Positions 5,685-42,640 of a DNA stretch of 48,032 nt are shown one piece after another. The number at the start of each line of letters is the position of its first letter. Within the stretch, counting starts at the first letter, position 1. A program made the position numbers and the translations under genes. The notes under the pieces are model-generated. The model made no database searches, was not told the origin of the DNA, and was given only the letters and a program-made list of their open reading frames with translations. Where the stretch lies: the IMG/VR virus record IMGVR_UViG_3300035670_000341, positions 1-48,032 of that record; one strand, given 5' to 3'. Origin of the DNA: a virus.

Positions 5685-5875
5685 GCGTCCACCGTGTCAA
5701 GAAGTTCCGGAGCCATGTGCTGAATCTCAGCAAGGAATTCATCTTCGCTGTACGATGTGAGCATATCGAAAGTTGCGATAGCTGCGAAGTCACGAATCTG
5801 TTCCGGAGTAGATTCCTTAATGATCTTATCCGTGTACGCAAGCATAAGCTTGATGCGCTTCTCTGATAACGCCAT
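5681..5875 (-). CDS. Hypothetical helical protein
   Basis: 64 residues, almost entirely helical and amphipathic (MALSEKRIKLMLAYTDKIIK, then TPEQIRDFAAIATFDML). No family recognised. It follows the membrane-protein gene at 5885-6031 by nine bases and couples to the next gene through ATGA. Confidence 0.66.
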   Translation of the reverse strand: MALSEKRIKLMLAYTDKIIKESTPEQIRDFAAIATFDMLTSYSEDEFLAEIQHMAPELLDTVDA

Positions 5876-34570: not shown

Positions 34571-34693
34571 TTACGCTTCGCTCCACTTCGCTATGTTTCC
34601 ACCTTCCAGCGACTCCGGCTCCTCTACGAAACAGTACAGAAAGATAAGAAGTCCGATGAAGACTGCAATCGTGAACGCTAGAACCTTTCTCAT
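34571..34693 (-). CDS. Small membrane protein at the block end
   Basis: 40 residues: MRKVLAFTIAVFIGLLIFLY then CFVEEPESLEGGNIAKW. A short basic N-terminus and one hydrophobic helix (about 4-21), then an acidic outer tail; it should be an inner-membrane protein. ATGA overlap with the upstream gene and a strong GGAGG ribosome site. Too short for standard gene calling. Function unknown; it is the last gene of the leftward block before the terminator. Confidence 0.7.
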   Translation of the reverse strand: MRKVLAFTIAVFIGLLIFLYCFVEEPESLEGGNIAKWSEA

Positions 34694-35904
34694 ATCTTAA
34701 CCTCCGCTTGGAATTCAGGAACCCAGAAGTCAAACTCCTTGTCTCCCTTCTCGTATCGCTCCTTGCACATAAGCATCTTCGCATCGACTGCGAATTGAAG
34801 AAGATCGTTCAGCATCCTAGGCTCTGCGCTGTGCATGAAGGAACGGATCACCTCGGAGCGCGGCACGACACTCTTCGTGAAGAAGTTCATCGTTCGGACG
34901 AAAGATACAATCTTGTCAATCTCTGTTGTATAGCGGTTCTTACCGACGCCGGTGAAGATCTTTTCGAGTCCGGGCTCCGTGGTTTCGATGGCGTGAACTC
35001 CGAAGGCCCAGTCTTCGGCTGTGATAACAAGCTCATCCTTAGTAGCAATGCTGTGTATCTGGGCGAGCTTCGCCACATGGGTTTTCTTTCTGTTGAGATA
35101 TCCGCCGAGCTTGTCATTCTTCATGAGATGTTGAGGGTTAGGCTTCTCGCTCCACTCCTTCGCAGCCTTGAGTCCATCGTCGGAGAAGGAGAACTCTCCT
35201 GCAAGTTCCTTGGAGATGTGAATCAAGTCGAGGAGGAGATCCTTCTCCAGCTCTGCGAAAGGTCCGACGACATCATCGAAGAACATCTTGTTGAGACGCG
35301 GACCATCTTCATACACGAAGATCACGCGAGACGCGAAGCCACCGGTGATGACACCTTCCGGCATGTTGTCCGTGATCCAGCCCGGAGTCGTAGCGGAGAA
35401 GAAGTTGATGCAAGGCTTCTCCAGAAACGCCGTGCCGTGACTCTTCGTGGCTGCTTCGTAGTTCATACTTCCATCAAACATGGAAGTGAAGAACTCATAG
35501 ATACCACCACGATCCTTTCCGGCCTTCTGGAAGATGTCTGAGAACTCTCCGACAACCAGATACATAGATGCATCGGTTGCTTGCTGAAGCTTCTCGATGA
35601 TAGCTTCCTTCGTGAATACGGAAGGTCCGGACTTGATGCCGTCCACTTGATCGAGTAGGACACGGGAACCGTTGTCGATTGTCGTGGTCTTTCTTGCACC
35701 CGGAGGACCGACGAACATCACATAGAGATACGGATAGCAGGACCAGAGGCCGAGATATTTCTTAGGAATCCAGATGCGGCGACGAACAGCGGAGGATAGA
35801 GTAAAGATTCCAGACCAGAAGACGTAAGATTCAGGAGCGTCCGTGCGAGGAAGAATGTAGTCTCGGTAAGTAAGAAGCCAGTTTTCGCAGCGGCGCTTTG
35901 TCAT
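34690..35904 (-). CDS. DUF3987-like replicative ATPase/helicase
   Basis: 404 residues. Walker A MFVGPPGARKTTTI near residues 62-75 and a Walker-B-like strand (MYLVVGEFSDIF, about 113-124). The order (N-terminal SYVFWSGIFTLSSAV, Walker A, FTKEAIIEKLQQA, VFVYEDGPR, C-terminal winged helix-like segment) resembles the DUF3987-type phage primase/helicase-like ATPases that replace DnaB or act as replicative helicase. It starts three bases after the polymerase C-terminal gene, so the two are cotranscribed. Confidence 0.78.
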   Translation of the reverse strand: MTKRRCENWLLTYRDYILPRTDAPESYVFWSGIFTLSSAVRRRIWIPKKYLGLWSCYPYLYVMFVGPPGARKTTTIDNGSRVLLDQVDGIKSGPSVFTKEAIIEKLQQATDASMYLVVGEFSDIFQKAGKDRGGIYEFFTSMFDGSMNYEAATKSHGTAFLEKPCINFFSATTPGWITDNMPEGVITGGFASRVIFVYEDGPRLNKMFFDDVVGPFAELEKDLLLDLIHISKELAGEFSFSDDGLKAAKEWSEKPNPQHLMKNDKLGGYLNRKKTHVAKLAQIHSIATKDELVITAEDWAFGVHAIETTEPGLEKIFTGVGKNRYTTEIDKIVSFVRTMNFFTKSVVPRSEVIRSFMHSAEPRMLNDLLQFAVDAKMLMCKERYEKGDKEFDFWVPEFQAEVKI

Positions 35905-35907
35905 ATG

Positions 35908-36726
35908 TCATGTTCTCCACTTTTCCATCTCTTTCCAACGCTCACCTACTTCCGCATCAACCGGGATTGTGAAAGTTTCACCCTTGATAACGAGAGGTCG
36001 TCTAAGGAGCGATACCACATGTTCAACAATCTCAGACGTAAGTTGACCAGGAACTTCAAGCATGACTGAGTCATGAGCAGTATTAACCATAGCAATCTCT
36101 CCTTTGCTCGGTAATACAATGTCTTCATAAATAGCAAGGTTTCCTCCGCGTATGCCGAGTTCAGGTTGGATGGCTCCGTGCATATGATCCGCCACGGTGC
36201 TTTGCGGTTCGAAGGCCGTCATCTCTTTCTTCAAATCATCTCCATAGATTCCCCAGAACTTACGCCGGAATCCGTAGACTGTTTGCATGGTGCGCGTTGT
36301 GCTTGCGATGTAGTCGATCTCACTCCACCAGTTTTGCAGATTGAAAGTGCCAAGCCACTTGGCGTGGAATCGCTTTGCATCCGCAACGGAGATGGAGATC
36401 ATGCCTTCTTTGTTAATGAACTCTGCGATCTTGAAGGGACCAGTACGATAGTTCCCTGCGTGGTTCATCTTCTTTCCGACGTAACGCTGCTCTTCGGAGA
36501 TGAGCCCTTCATACTTCTTCTTGCCGGGGATGTTGGCATCGAAGGGAACGTCGAAGATGCCTGTCGCAGAGAAGGAATGAATGTCTCCTCCTGCAAGCTC
36601 TCTCTTCATGTTGGGATCGTTAGCGAGGTACGCTACGACCCAAGCCTCTGCGGCAGAGAGATCGAAAGCACACAGCGTCTTGCCCTTCGGAGCAACATAC
36701 ATGGAGCGAATAGCAAGCTTCTTCAT
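35908..36726 (-). CDS. DNA polymerase I (family A), C-terminal half
   Basis: 272 residues carrying the catalytic half of a Pol A enzyme. It begins MKKLAIRSMYVAPKG, corresponding to the segment just before motif A. Motif A FDLSAAEAW (catalytic Asp 22, Glu 27); motif B RYVGKKMNHAGNY (81-93: Arg, Lys, His at the 762 position, Tyr); motif C NTAHDSVMLEV (His 218, Asp 219). The exonuclease and thumb are in the ORF at 36953-38563. Starts ATGA-overlapping DUF3310. It cannot act alone; assembly with the N-terminal half is inferred. Confidence 0.93.
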   Translation of the reverse strand: MKKLAIRSMYVAPKGKTLCAFDLSAAEAWVVAYLANDPNMKRELAGGDIHSFSATGIFDVPFDANIPGKKKYEGLISEEQRYVGKKMNHAGNYRTGPFKIAEFINKEGMISISVADAKRFHAKWLGTFNLQNWWSEIDYIASTTRTMQTVYGFRRKFWGIYGDDLKKEMTAFEPQSTVADHMHGAIQPELGIRGGNLAIYEDIVLPSKGEIAMVNTAHDSVMLEVPGQLTSEIVEHVVSLLRRPLVIKGETFTIPVDAEVGERWKEMEKWRT

Positions 36727-36956
36727 CCCGCGCGGCCTTCGGCGTCTGTGTATTCCTCTAGCTTAGAGAGATACCAGATAGCCTTTTGAAGATCTTGATT
36801 TGCGTTGCCCTTCTTCTCGTATCGCCAGAGATACTTCATGGCGTTGCCCTTGAGGAATCCCTTGAATGCAACAGGGTCCATAGATGCTTCGATGGCGTCG
36901 ATGCACTCGATGGCCCCTTCCGTGTAATGCGGAGGATGGTACACGGCTTCGTTCAT
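36723..36956 (-). CDS. DUF3310 protein inside the split polymerase
   Basis: 77 residues. YHPPHYTEGAIECIDAIEAS and FKGFLKGNAMKYLWRYEKKG then LQKAIWYLSKLEE is the DUF3310 (SaV-like) signature. The family is common in phages and has been described as nucleotide-kinase-like; the exact role is not certain. It overlaps the N-terminal polymerase gene before it and the C-terminal polymerase gene after it by ATGA each, so all three are coupled. Confidence 0.93.
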   Translation of the reverse strand: MNEAVYHPPHYTEGAIECIDAIEASMDPVAFKGFLKGNAMKYLWRYEKKGNANQDLQKAIWYLSKLEEYTDAEGRAG

Positions 36957-38563
36957 ACGCTCTCCCGAGGAATGGTTTGTCCGTTCAAGCCTGTTCCATC
37001 ATACCAAGATCCTGCGCTCCAACGCCCAGTCTCCGTGCCCCAGAACTTATACCACGAACGCACTCTTCCATCCGGAGAAGTCTCAACGTCGATGTATGAG
37101 GAGAGAAGCTTCTCATATCCACGGATGCGAAGGATGAGCTTCAGCGCAGCGAGCTTCACTTGCCAAGGCTGACGACCAGCGTCCGTCTTGAGATCCTGAA
37201 TCTTCTTCTCCGTGAAGGAGAGAAGGGATACGATGGAGTCTTCGCCGGAAGTAACGCGCCCTTCGGATGTCGTCTTGACGGGAAGGCCAAGCTTCTCGTA
37301 CAAGAAGTCATTCACTCTTGCATGCTGAGATACCTTGAAGGGCTCAGTCTGGTACATGTTCTGGATGCCGATGAAGACCATGTAATCTCTGTCCAGCTTG
37401 TCGGCTACCGTAGTCTTGAGTTCGATACGACGAGCTTCATCGACGAGCATGCCAGTCGTAGAGAAGTGCTTGGCAAGAGGAATCTGCTTCATCTTGTACT
37501 CGTAGTATCTACGAGAAGTCTCGTCGAATTCAGCAGCTTGTCCTGCTTGAACTTGCGCCGTGGCTACGACATCCTTGCAGTTGTAGATACCTAGCTTCGT
37601 GCGGTCGATGCGATCAGAGGATTCCTTTCCGTCGTCCTTGTAGTAGTTGATGTTCGTATACATGGACGTGCAGTAATCAAGACCGATGGGAAGCTCAGGC
37701 TGTAGAACGTGCTGCGCTACCATCGTGTCGTAGTCCCATCCGTTCACCGTGAAGCCATTCTCTTCCAGCATGATGGTGTCGAACATTCCGTTATGGAAAG
37801 TCTTGGGAATGTCAGACTCCAGAAGCTGAGATACTACTCTTCGGAAGTTTGGTCCGATGGGATTGGACTCGTAGTTTCCATCGTTGAAGATGCAGACTGC
37901 ATCTCTGTCGGACCATGCGAATCCGATGCATCGGATGTAGGAAGTGTACTTCTTTGTTTCGATGTCAACATAAAGGCGCGGCGCTGCGAGAAGCGTCTGA
38001 AGCAAGCCTTCCAGTTGGTATACATCTGGGTCAACGATGAAGTTGAAGTTAGGCTCCGTCCATCCATGCTTCGCAATGTGTATCGCCTTCTCTATGTCTT
38101 TGAGGAAAGCTGGTCCGTTGGATGCTTGAAAGGTGACGAGGCTCGGATGCAAAGTAGGAACGACGAACATGTTCTTGTACTTATACACAGAGCCACGATG
38201 ATTCTCGATTCCATCGAAGCCTAGCAGGAAGTCCATCGCACGGTTTCCCATTGGAATGAGAACCTTGTGCTTGCAGGTTGCAAGGTAGGACTTGAGTTCC
38301 TTGCATCCATGTTCGAACTGCCATGTTGTGTGCGCCTTACGAAGATCGTTCTTCGCAGGCTGGTAGTTCATGAGGTTTCCAATGCGGACTTGCTCGCGTG
38401 TCAGACCGAAGGAAGACAATGCGATGTCGAACATCTCGCCATGCTTGCCTTGCATCTGTCTTTGCATCGCATCTTCGGAGGAAGAAGGCGCTTCTCCTAT
38501 GAAGAAAAGCTCTGCATCCTCCGGACCCTCATGCGGAACGAGGCGATCGGAGACTAGCTTCAT
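36953..38563 (-). CDS. DNA polymerase I, N-terminal part with UDG-like and exonuclease domains
   Basis: 536 residues. Domains in order: a uracil-DNA-glycosylase-superfamily domain (about 1-160) with GEAPSSSED (23-31) and TLHPSL (137-142); a 3'-5' exonuclease with YVDIETK (188-194, Exo I), HNGMFD (about 245, Exo II) and YNCKD (about 320, Exo III); then thumb/palm start ending GTETGRWSAGSWYDGTGLNG then QTIPRESV, equal to the TGRLSS..PNLQNIP stretch of Pol I. It stops there; the rest is in 35908-36726. A UDG-like domain on phage Pol A is known; whether it has glycosylase activity is open. Confidence 0.92.
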   Translation of the reverse strand: MKLVSDRLVPHEGPEDAELFFIGEAPSSSEDAMQRQMQGKHGEMFDIALSSFGLTREQVRIGNLMNYQPAKNDLRKAHTTWQFEHGCKELKSYLATCKHKVLIPMGNRAMDFLLGFDGIENHRGSVYKYKNMFVVPTLHPSLVTFQASNGPAFLKDIEKAIHIAKHGWTEPNFNFIVDPDVYQLEGLLQTLLAAPRLYVDIETKKYTSYIRCIGFAWSDRDAVCIFNDGNYESNPIGPNFRRVVSQLLESDIPKTFHNGMFDTIMLEENGFTVNGWDYDTMVAQHVLQPELPIGLDYCTSMYTNINYYKDDGKESSDRIDRTKLGIYNCKDVVATAQVQAGQAAEFDETSRRYYEYKMKQIPLAKHFSTTGMLVDEARRIELKTTVADKLDRDYMVFIGIQNMYQTEPFKVSQHARVNDFLYEKLGLPVKTTSEGRVTSGEDSIVSLLSFTEKKIQDLKTDAGRQPWQVKLAALKLILRIRGYEKLLSSYIDVETSPDGRVRSWYKFWGTETGRWSAGSWYDGTGLNGQTIPRESV

Positions 38564-38789
38564 CGAGTTGTTTCTTGAGGGTTTGCGCGTAGGAGCGGGA
38601 GACGGCGAGTTGCGTTGTCAGCTTTTGAGTTTGCTTTCTAAGATGCACTACTTCTTTCGTTAGCTGTTCGTTCTCTAGAAGTAGAGTCTCTACGCGCTTG
38701 CCTTCTTCGTGTATGAAGGTATCTGTCTCAGTCCAGCGAGCAGCAAGCTGCATCAGAGTTTCGTGGATGTCGAGAGTCTTCTTCTTCAC
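38529..38789 (-). CDS. Coiled-coil protein before the polymerase
   Basis: 86 residues, nearly all coiled coil (ETLMQLAARWTETDTFIHEE, then LLLENEQLTKEVVHLRKQTQ). It overlaps the polymerase start by 35 bases and ThyX by four. A dimeric helical adaptor is possible; no family recognised. Confidence 0.72.
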   Translation of the reverse strand: MKKKTLDIHETLMQLAARWTETDTFIHEEGKRVETLLLENEQLTKEVVHLRKQTQKLTTQLAVSRSYAQTLKKQLDEASLRSPRSA

Positions 38790-39439
38790 ATCTGGATGAA
38801 GCGAGAGATGTAAGGAAAGAAAGGATCAATGGCTTCGGCGCAGCGCGTTGCGAGGTCACGATGTTCCTTCTGCGTAGAAGGATCTGTGCGGACTTCGACG
38901 TAATGTATCCAGCTACGCAGAGAGCCGGAGACGAAGAGCCGAGATTCCGTCATGCCTTCGGGCAGGATGGCGCGAGCCACTTCCTTTGCGATGCCTGCGT
39001 TTATGGCTTCATTATAATATGTTTGCGTAATATCTTCTATTTCTTTCTGCATGTTGTACCAAGCCTTTTCAATCTTTTCATCCTTCGTAGGAAGCGAAGA
39101 CTGACGATTGTTCTTGTCCTGCATGCGAGCTTCGCGATAATGCATCGGAGCATCTTGCACAGCGTAGCGTTGCGAGAACTCTTGGAAGGAGAAGCTACGA
39201 TGTCGAAGAAGCTGACGTGCAATGTCACGGGTCGTCGTGATGTCCATGACAATCGTGACCATCTCGAACGGGGACCAATGCTTATGTTCGATGAGATAGT
39301 TGATCAGCTTCTCTCCGTTGAGTCCCTTTGCTTGAGACTCTGGATTGGAGATGCGAGCGCAGTACACGACTTGGTCGGTGAGAGTCATGTCTGCGCCGGC
39401 GAGGTTCGTAGGGATGGAGAAGATGCGGGCGGAGTTCAT
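38786..39439 (-). CDS. thyX: Flavin-dependent thymidylate synthase
   Basis: 217 residues. Converts dUMP to dTMP using FAD, NADPH and methylenetetrahydrofolate. The ThyX motif RHRSFSFQEFSQRYA (RHRxxSxxxxSxRY) is intact, with VYCARISNP near the N-terminus and the helical LRSWIHYVEVRTD near the end. Near-complete length for the family. It suits the nearby UDG-like domain and polymerase, since phage dTMP supply limits uracil in DNA. ATGA overlaps on both sides. Confidence 0.96.
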   Translation of the reverse strand: MNSARIFSIPTNLAGADMTLTDQVVYCARISNPESQAKGLNGEKLINYLIEHKHWSPFEMVTIVMDITTTRDIARQLLRHRSFSFQEFSQRYAVQDAPMHYREARMQDKNNRQSSLPTKDEKIEKAWYNMQKEIEDITQTYYNEAINAGIAKEVARAILPEGMTESRLFVSGSLRSWIHYVEVRTDPSTQKEHRDLATRCAEAIDPFFPYISRFIQM

Positions 39440-39799: not shown

Positions 39800-39879
39800 C
39801 GCTTTGAAGAGACGTAAAAGATGAGACCAAACCAGAGTATCGAGAGGAAAAGCAAGACTAAGAAGTCATCTAGAGTCAT
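39796..39879 (-). CDS. Tiny membrane peptide, first in the array
   Basis: 27 residues: MTLDDFLVLLFLSILWFGLI then FYVSSKR. A single helix with acidic N-terminal and basic C-terminal ends, so it probably has its N-terminus out or in by the positive-inside rule (Lys/Arg in the cytoplasm). ATGA overlap with the GroES-like stop and with the next copy. Paralogue of the second peptide. Confidence 0.75.
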   Translation of the reverse strand: MTLDDFLVLLFLSILWFGLIFYVSSKR

Positions 39880-40301
39880 GCGCCGAACCTCTGTTCAAAC
39901 TTCTGCTTCATCTCAATGACACGGGGCATGCGCTGATAGGCATCGCGGAGGATTAGCATCGCAGCTTCGGCGGGAGCTTCTTCGTATGTGTCTCCCATGA
40001 GGAGGAAGAGTCCCGGAACCTTAGTCGTAGGAGGCGTGACGATTGCAATGACGCCAGCTTCCTTCAACATGATGAGCTTGTTTCCTTCGTCCGCATCGTT
40101 CACCACCATGCCGGAGTATGGATTGAACACAACGTAATCTCCGACTTGCACATCCTTCACCTCAGGTCCAACGGACTTCACGATTCCTTGATCGCTTCGA
40201 TCCTTCGTGGATTCAGGACGCACGATGAGGGAAGATCCGTACCAAGTATCTGGATCATCCAAAGCTGCGACGAGGATGTTATCGCGGAGTGGGATTAGCA
40301 T
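39876..40301 (-). CDS. GroES-like co-chaperonin
   Basis: 141 residues. Starts MLIPLRDNILVAALDDPDTW; mobile-loop-like LIVRPESTKDRSDQG and barrel strand IVKSVGPEVKDVQVGDYVVF are GroES-like. GroES is about 97 residues; this has a helical C-terminal extension of about 45 (AEAAMLILRDAYQRMPRVIE). Phages such as T4 (gp31) use their own co-chaperonin to fold the capsid in host GroEL. The IVL-type tripeptide for GroEL contact is LIV here. ATGA links it to the peptide array. Confidence 0.82.
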   Translation of the reverse strand: MLIPLRDNILVAALDDPDTWYGSSLIVRPESTKDRSDQGIVKSVGPEVKDVQVGDYVVFNPYSGMVVNDADEGNKLIMLKEAGVIAIVTPPTTKVPGLFLLMGDTYEEAPAEAAMLILRDAYQRMPRVIEMKQKFEQRFGA

Positions 40302-42350: not shown

Positions 42351-42382
42351 GCTTTCTCCTTTGTGTGATGGTTTGTACTACA

Positions 42383-42453
42383 CAGCCCCGGTGAGAATCG
42401 AACTCACGTCCTCGCATCCAAAGTGCGCTGCACTACCATTGTGCTACGGGGCA
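42383..42453 (-). tRNA. tRNA-Gln (anticodon TTG)
   Basis: Read on the minus strand: acceptor TGCCCCG/CGGGGCT, D-stem GCAC/GTGC with AATGGTA loop, anticodon stem GCGCA with loop CTTTGGA (anticodon TTG), T-stem GTGAG/CTCAC with TTCGATT. Discriminator G73 and the weak U1-U72 position fit the GlnRS preference for an open first pair. No CCA is encoded. It decodes CAA and CAG, and several virion genes here are unusually rich in Gln codons. Confidence 0.9.
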
Positions 42454-42640
42454 AAATGCGGAAGGGCTTAACGTAGGAATATGTCGCGAACCCAGAGGGG
42501 GGATATTCCTTTAGTGGGTGAGGTAAGTACACCGACAACTCTTGTCCCACAACGCCGTTAAGCTTTCACAGCAGGGGCATGCGTATGCGATGGCAAGACC
42601 ATGACGGTTTTACAGGCATGCTGTGTTCCGCTATGCTACA
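42454..42640. other. Structured non-coding interval beside tRNA
   Basis: 187 bases without a gene. Inverted repeats AGGAATAT (42475-42482) with ATATTCCT (42503-42510), and CACAGCA (about 42569-42575) with TGCTGTG (about 42619-42625), can form hairpins. A second tRNA was sought and not found. It may hold a promoter or RNA for the 42350-34571 genes, but nothing specific is shown. Confidence 0.4.

Follow-up and report, generated by a model that had tools for sequence, protein, structure and literature searches.

Replicative DNA polymerases in two polypeptides have been described in T4-like phages (Aeromonas phage 25, 44RR), where the family B enzyme is encoded as gp43A and gp43B, with either a gene for a Seg-type homing endonuclease or an inserted untranslated sequence at the break; the two parts of the phage 25 enzyme co-purify and have polymerase activity (PMC2988022). 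In genes fractured by split inteins, for example that of PolB in phage MIJ3, the polymerase gene is likewise broken with a gene between the pieces, and the pieces carry splicing intein halves (PMC6892783). A split PolA has already been published for the OM43 phages MEP401 and MEP402 (Zobellviridae), in which one ORF encodes the exonuclease and the first part of PolA, another the rest of PolA, and a small unrelated ORF lies between them; an intron was proposed there but was not demonstrated (PMC10580990).

The DNA analysed here (the window) is in itself an IMG/VR virus record, 48,032 bases in length. Its polymerase locus consists of three ORFs on the minus strand, neighbouring pairs of which overlap by 4 nt (Table 1). 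As in the gp43A/gp43B system a replicative polymerase is distributed over two polypeptides, but the enzyme belongs to family A, and the break holds a DUF3310 gene instead of the endonuclease gene found in genes split by homing endonucleases (gp43A/B, Aeh1 nrdA). Unlike the split-intein genes, the two halves are devoid of inteins. The arrangement is thus of a known kind; what is new is its independent origin, the recurrence of the break in the same loop and the turnover of the genes in the gap. We interpret the locus, with a probability of about 0.8, as a phage PolA that has permanently become two proteins by a split in a surface loop, with coupled translation of the parts, their non-covalent Klenow-like assembly and DUF3310 as a later passenger. 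Sequence, tree and predicted fold establish the split, its conservation, the completeness of the parts, the turnover of gap genes and the independent repeats on which this interpretation draws.

Table 1. Features of the split polymerase locus (positions in the window)
Feature	Position	Strand	Evidence or remark
PolA N half	36953..38563	-	536 aa; UDG-like domain, 3'-5' exonuclease, thumb, palm start; Klenow 324/325-684 by structure
UDG (family 4-like) domain, N-half residues 10-155	38099..38536	-	PF03167 3.4e-16; family 4 UDG structures Z 23 (predicted fold)
3'-5' exonuclease domain, N-half residues 183-338	37550..38017	-	DNA_pol_A_exo1, PF01612 5.9e-11
CGGGAGAG, P-R-E-S codons doubling as putative Shine-Dalgarno-like site for DUF3310 start	36960..36967	-	duplex energy -7.4; role inferred
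ATGA overlap, DUF3310 start and N-half stop	36953..36956	-	sequence
DUF3310 gene, 77 aa, T7 gp1.7-type nucleotide kinase domain, probable gap passenger	36723..36956	-	PF11753 4.8e-21; nucleotide kinase PHROGs
ATGA overlap, C-half start and DUF3310 stop; weak Shine-Dalgarno	36723..36726	-	sequence; SD energy -3.3
PolA C half, 272 aa; motif A, fingers/motif B, motif C	35908..36726	-	Klenow 683-928, Taq 588-832, Bst 630-876, Z ~22-24
Motif A region (DLSAAEAW)	36640..36663	-	invariant D22 and E27
Motif B (RYVGKKMNHAGNY)	36448..36486	-	invariant R81, K85, H89, Y93
Motif C (HDS)	36067..36075	-	invariant H218, D219, S220
Primase-like gene (DUF3987), downstream of C half	34690..35904	-	kept beside PolA in split and intact relatives

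The coordinates and frames given for the three ORFs in the first-pass annotation held, and the same ORFs with the same overlaps were found in four other metagenome contigs (identity 94-95% for the N half and 96-97% for the C half), the break itself being present in more than 15 further contigs. An assembly error is therefore excluded. All contigs related to the window (L001-L008, L027-L031, L044-L050, L053, L149-L152 and L148, the last from a MAG, the others viral) were split at one place. After merging of near-identical contigs about 20 split lineages remained, 19 of which entered the tree as rows (L152, with a partial N half, was omitted) and formed one clade with a support of 100/100. Single-ORF polymerases (L051, L010, L013, L014, L153-L155 and L157) fell outside this clade, and the sole split row outside it was a Vibrio phage, by the tree a separate split (see below). 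In eight contigs of one subclade (L044, L047, L048, L050, L148, L150, L151, L152) the N half ends with an acidic tail of 36-45 aa (13-18 D/E, 1-4 K/R); the subclade of the window has no such tail.

The N half ends in TGRWSA..LNGQTIPRESV, two residues past PRE, and the C half begins with MKKLAIRSMYVAPKG, five residues ahead of IRSM. In Pfam comparisons the C half matched positions 140-381 of the DNA_pol_A profile (2.3e-16), and the first part of the same family was recognized in the N half with a score below the cut-off; on PHROG 17 (DNA polymerase) the N half covers 478-988 and the C half 996-1236. Each half was modelled with AlphaFold2 as a single chain from alignments of relatives with 15-16 rows, yielding pLDDT values of 91.4 (C half) and 89.0 (N half). 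With VIA-align the C-half model could be superimposed on Bst, Taq and Klenow (Z 22-24; 235-236 residues on Bst and Klenow), and the N-half model on family 4 UDG plus Klenow and Bst 298-631 (Z 20-21). The N-terminal domain of the N half is predicted to have the fold of a family 4-type uracil-DNA glycosylase. Because the predicted folds tile Klenow (324/325-684 and 683-928), no part is missing, in agreement with the original impression that nothing conserved had been lost. Sequence alignment and structure mapping also bear out that the break lies a short way upstream of motif A; it falls at about Klenow 683/684, within a loop whose length differs from one intact relative to another.

The features of a family A DNA polymerase are present, namely motif A (D), motif B (R..K), motif C (HD) and a Klenow-like fold (C half, Z ~24), and the catalytic residues of the three motifs (D22, R81, K85, H218, D219) are invariant across the compared halves. 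In comparisons with close relatives dN/dS was 0.08-0.16 for the N half, 0.06-0.08 for the C half and 0.07-0.25 for DUF3310; both halves are under purifying selection. They keep their order across very divergent relatives, with identities down to ~34% (N) and ~41% (C). These observations bear on the idea that the polymerase is dead, a case of gene decay in a phage replicated by another polymerase. With family searches covering part of the window's ORFs, the split itself is the sole point in its favour, and with invariant catalytic motifs, dN/dS of 0.06-0.16 and two halves that stay in order over such divergence we regard decay as most improbable. For the preferred reading, a working two-subunit enzyme, the following scheme can be proposed. 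The parent gene would have been cut in the ancestor of the phage group, in a variable, indel-tolerant surface loop between TGR..LNxQTxPRE and IRSMxxAPKG, just before motif A. The N half would contribute UDG, 3'-5' exonuclease, thumb and the first part of the palm, the C half the rest of the palm, the fingers and both catalytic aspartates, and the two polypeptides, not covalently linked, would come together as a single Klenow-like enzyme, an obligate two-subunit PolA. Taking into account that gp43A/43B co-purify and polymerize (PMC2988022), non-covalent assembly is the default expectation for the window halves, and we infer that they assemble in this way and have polymerase activity.

The ATGA overlaps noticed at both ends of the DUF3310 gene were confirmed, and together with the TAATG junction of a relative (see below) they suggest coupled translation. 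The N half, DUF3310 and the C half would then be translationally coupled: ribosomes completing the N half may re-initiate at DUF3310 and pass through it into the C half. The Shine-Dalgarno duplex energy at CGGGAGAG is among the best 0.7% of positions in the N-half gene. A strong site occurs at this junction in the window, in L005 and L007 and also in the Vibrio phage, where the matching codons form it, but the site is ordinary in L001, L003, L031 and L008; that a Shine-Dalgarno sequence built into the codons for P-R-E might be the general cause was therefore demoted to a suggestion. In L007 (4974-5022) no ATG, GTG or TTG occurs at the expected start of the C half, after a good Shine-Dalgarno sequence (GGAGG); perhaps an odd start codon is used, or the assembly has an indel. 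In L045 the two polymerase ORFs share 26 nt (5781-5806), read in neighbouring frames. This overlap could be taken to mean that frameshifting or other re-coding also yields a full-length polymerase chain, but the halves are separated by a 234-nt gene in the window and by ~3.6 kb in MW202796, beyond any single recoding event, and there is very little to be said for such a product. Judged from their sequences, the overlaps in L045 and L148 look like plain frameshift or stop/restart fission, that of L045 as though a frameshift with an internal restart had stood at the beginning of the split.

The order PolA-DUF3310-PolA, which the first-pass annotation had proposed to look for in related genomes, was found in L001-L007 and L031, whereas elsewhere the gap holds unrelated genes or none. 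DUF3310 is alone in the gap in the window, L001-L004 and L007, and accompanied by another ORF in L005, L006 and L031; these contigs form the small subclade of the window, and the presence of DUF3310 in the gap corresponds to one change on the tree. The sister lineage L008 has no gap gene and a 1-nt TAATG overlap, and the other gapless lineages have a 3-nt spacer (L044) or overlaps of 26 nt (L045) and 14 nt (L148). The remaining gaps contain an ORF of 75-77 aa without known family (L027, L028), a dATP/dGTP diphosphohydrolase-like ORF (L030), DUF4031 (L050), a DHH phosphoesterase-like protein (L151), several ORFs (L029, with RHH and others; L048; L149) or other ORFs without known family (L047, L150, L152). 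A Cys-rich, basic ORF of 129-141 aa lies in the gap of L006 (4371-4763) and L031 (3874-4263), and a similar-looking one follows the primase in L028 (6450-6875); it is possibly a mobile small gene.

It had been suggested that DUF3310 might help the halves to reassemble. As a structural helper or linker uniting the halves in this phage group it would have in its favour its location between them, the 4-nt overlaps on both sides and purifying selection. However, the same break occurs with other genes or nothing in the gap; DUF3310 was not detected anywhere in the contigs L008, L027-L030, L044, L047, L048 and L050, some of which are incomplete; L045 carries it elsewhere in the contig, outside the gap, with the same break, a finding that the first-pass annotation had listed beforehand as one that would refute it; and the gene is widespread in phages (773 phage records). 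Because of the gapless relatives and L045 the split is independent of DUF3310, the same evidence led to its rejection as an assembly factor, and a helper role in the group of the window is very unlikely. According to the tree, the split long predates the arrival of DUF3310, which is best read as a recent, replaceable passenger: it would have joined later, gaining polymerase-coupled expression while dispensable for split and assembly, and the junction would have become a slot for small genes. It could still affect expression in the subclade of the window, because the C-half start has only a weak Shine-Dalgarno sequence of its own.

The DUF3310 protein matched PF11753 with 75 bits (curated cut-off 24) and is 60-65% identical to proteins of T7-like phages, one of them annotated as nucleotide kinase. 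The family, linked to the T7 gp1.7 nucleotide kinase (PMC9339283), is shared with T7 gp1.7, but the window protein is a stand-alone product of 77 aa encoded inside a polymerase operon, and its kinase activity is predicted from its family. It is best interpreted as a passenger with a putative role in dNTP supply, expressed together with the polymerase.

A homing endonuclease, group I intron or split intein might have made the split at the motif A region and later been lost or replaced. Elements of this type tend to settle in conserved genes of replication, and they accompany phage genes already known to be split (Aeh1 nrdA, gene 43 of phage 25; PMC2988022). An ORF of 130 aa (Zn/basic) in the gap of L006 even gave a marginal match to a homing endonuclease PHROG (E 0.047), which was discounted. 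On the other side, Rfam searches detected no intron, whether in the window with E relaxed to 1 or, at the gathering threshold, in 14 relatives; no endonuclease domain was detected in the window gap gene or in the gap ORFs of relatives that were tested, and no intein-length extension at the new termini of the window halves. Simple stop/restart fission is in keeping with the four gapless lineages and with the overlapping ORFs of L045 and L148. An origin by a mobile element is therefore rather unlikely; as a present feature of the break, intron, intein and homing endonuclease were rejected on the negative Rfam result, the termini without extra sequence and the missing domain match, and the initial reading of the sequence had likewise seen no homing gene or intein.

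Two further splits proved to be separate from that of the permanently two-part PolA of the window group. Vibrio phage vB_VspS_VS-ABTNL-3 (MF497422, PVS_29/28/27) has a polymerase of the UDG-exo-PolA type, split in the same loop as in the window with a small ORF between, but its gap gene (184 aa) is unrelated to DUF3310. It groups, on a long branch, with the intact polymerases of MW202489 and Mel-JY34 (100/100), and one clade for this phage and the window group was rejected (AU p 0.0003). In MEP401 a small ORF likewise separates the parts, but the break is one strand later, in a different loop (between ..SRYG and MILNADA), the polymerase has no UDG domain, and the gap gene, ORF14, is unrelated to DUF3310; here a common clade was rejected with an AU p of 2.6e-48. 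All 73 MEP401-related viral contigs holding both halves were split, three of them without a gene between. In this lineage the halves abut in Alcaligenes phage QDWS535, are separated by an R67 DHFR-like gene in MW202697 (PF06442 2.7e-22, L062:2282-2488), and are ~3.6 kb and seven genes apart in MW202796, so that each half clearly functions as a gene in its own right. When the C halves of the Vibrio and Alcaligenes phages were each used as a single query, no further viral contigs were recovered. Caulobacter phage Kuura (L018:3477-6881) and MW202554 (L009:1727-4364) were rejected as comparable cases, the break between exonuclease and polymerase domains being of a different kind.

We tentatively suggest, at somewhat less than even odds, that the region before motif A is a recurrent hotspot of PolA fission (no fewer than three independent events, spread over two adjacent loops), and that the junction then serves over long periods as an insertion site at which small genes arrive, replace one another and disappear under polymerase-coupled expression, several of them related to nucleotide metabolism (gp1.7-type kinase, dATP/dGTP diphosphohydrolase-like, R67 DHFR-like). 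The persistence of the split indicates that a broad group of phages can maintain its replicative polymerase as two subunits, each translated separately, and that a cut next to a catalytic aspartate can be kept with no mobile element in sight. Independent cuts that recur in neighbouring loops, combined with the turnover of gap genes, offer a test bed for gene splitting and its persistence, and the halves a natural design for two-part polymerases. For annotators, PolA-X-PolA should count as a normal arrangement and not as a sequencing error.

Upstream of the polymerase, on the minus strand, lie an ORF for an 86 aa coiled-coil-like protein without clear family match (38529-38789), which overlaps the N-half start by 35 nt, and the genes for a ThyX thymidylate synthase (38786-39439) and a GroES-like co-chaperonin (39876-40301); a tRNA-Gln is located at 42382-42454.
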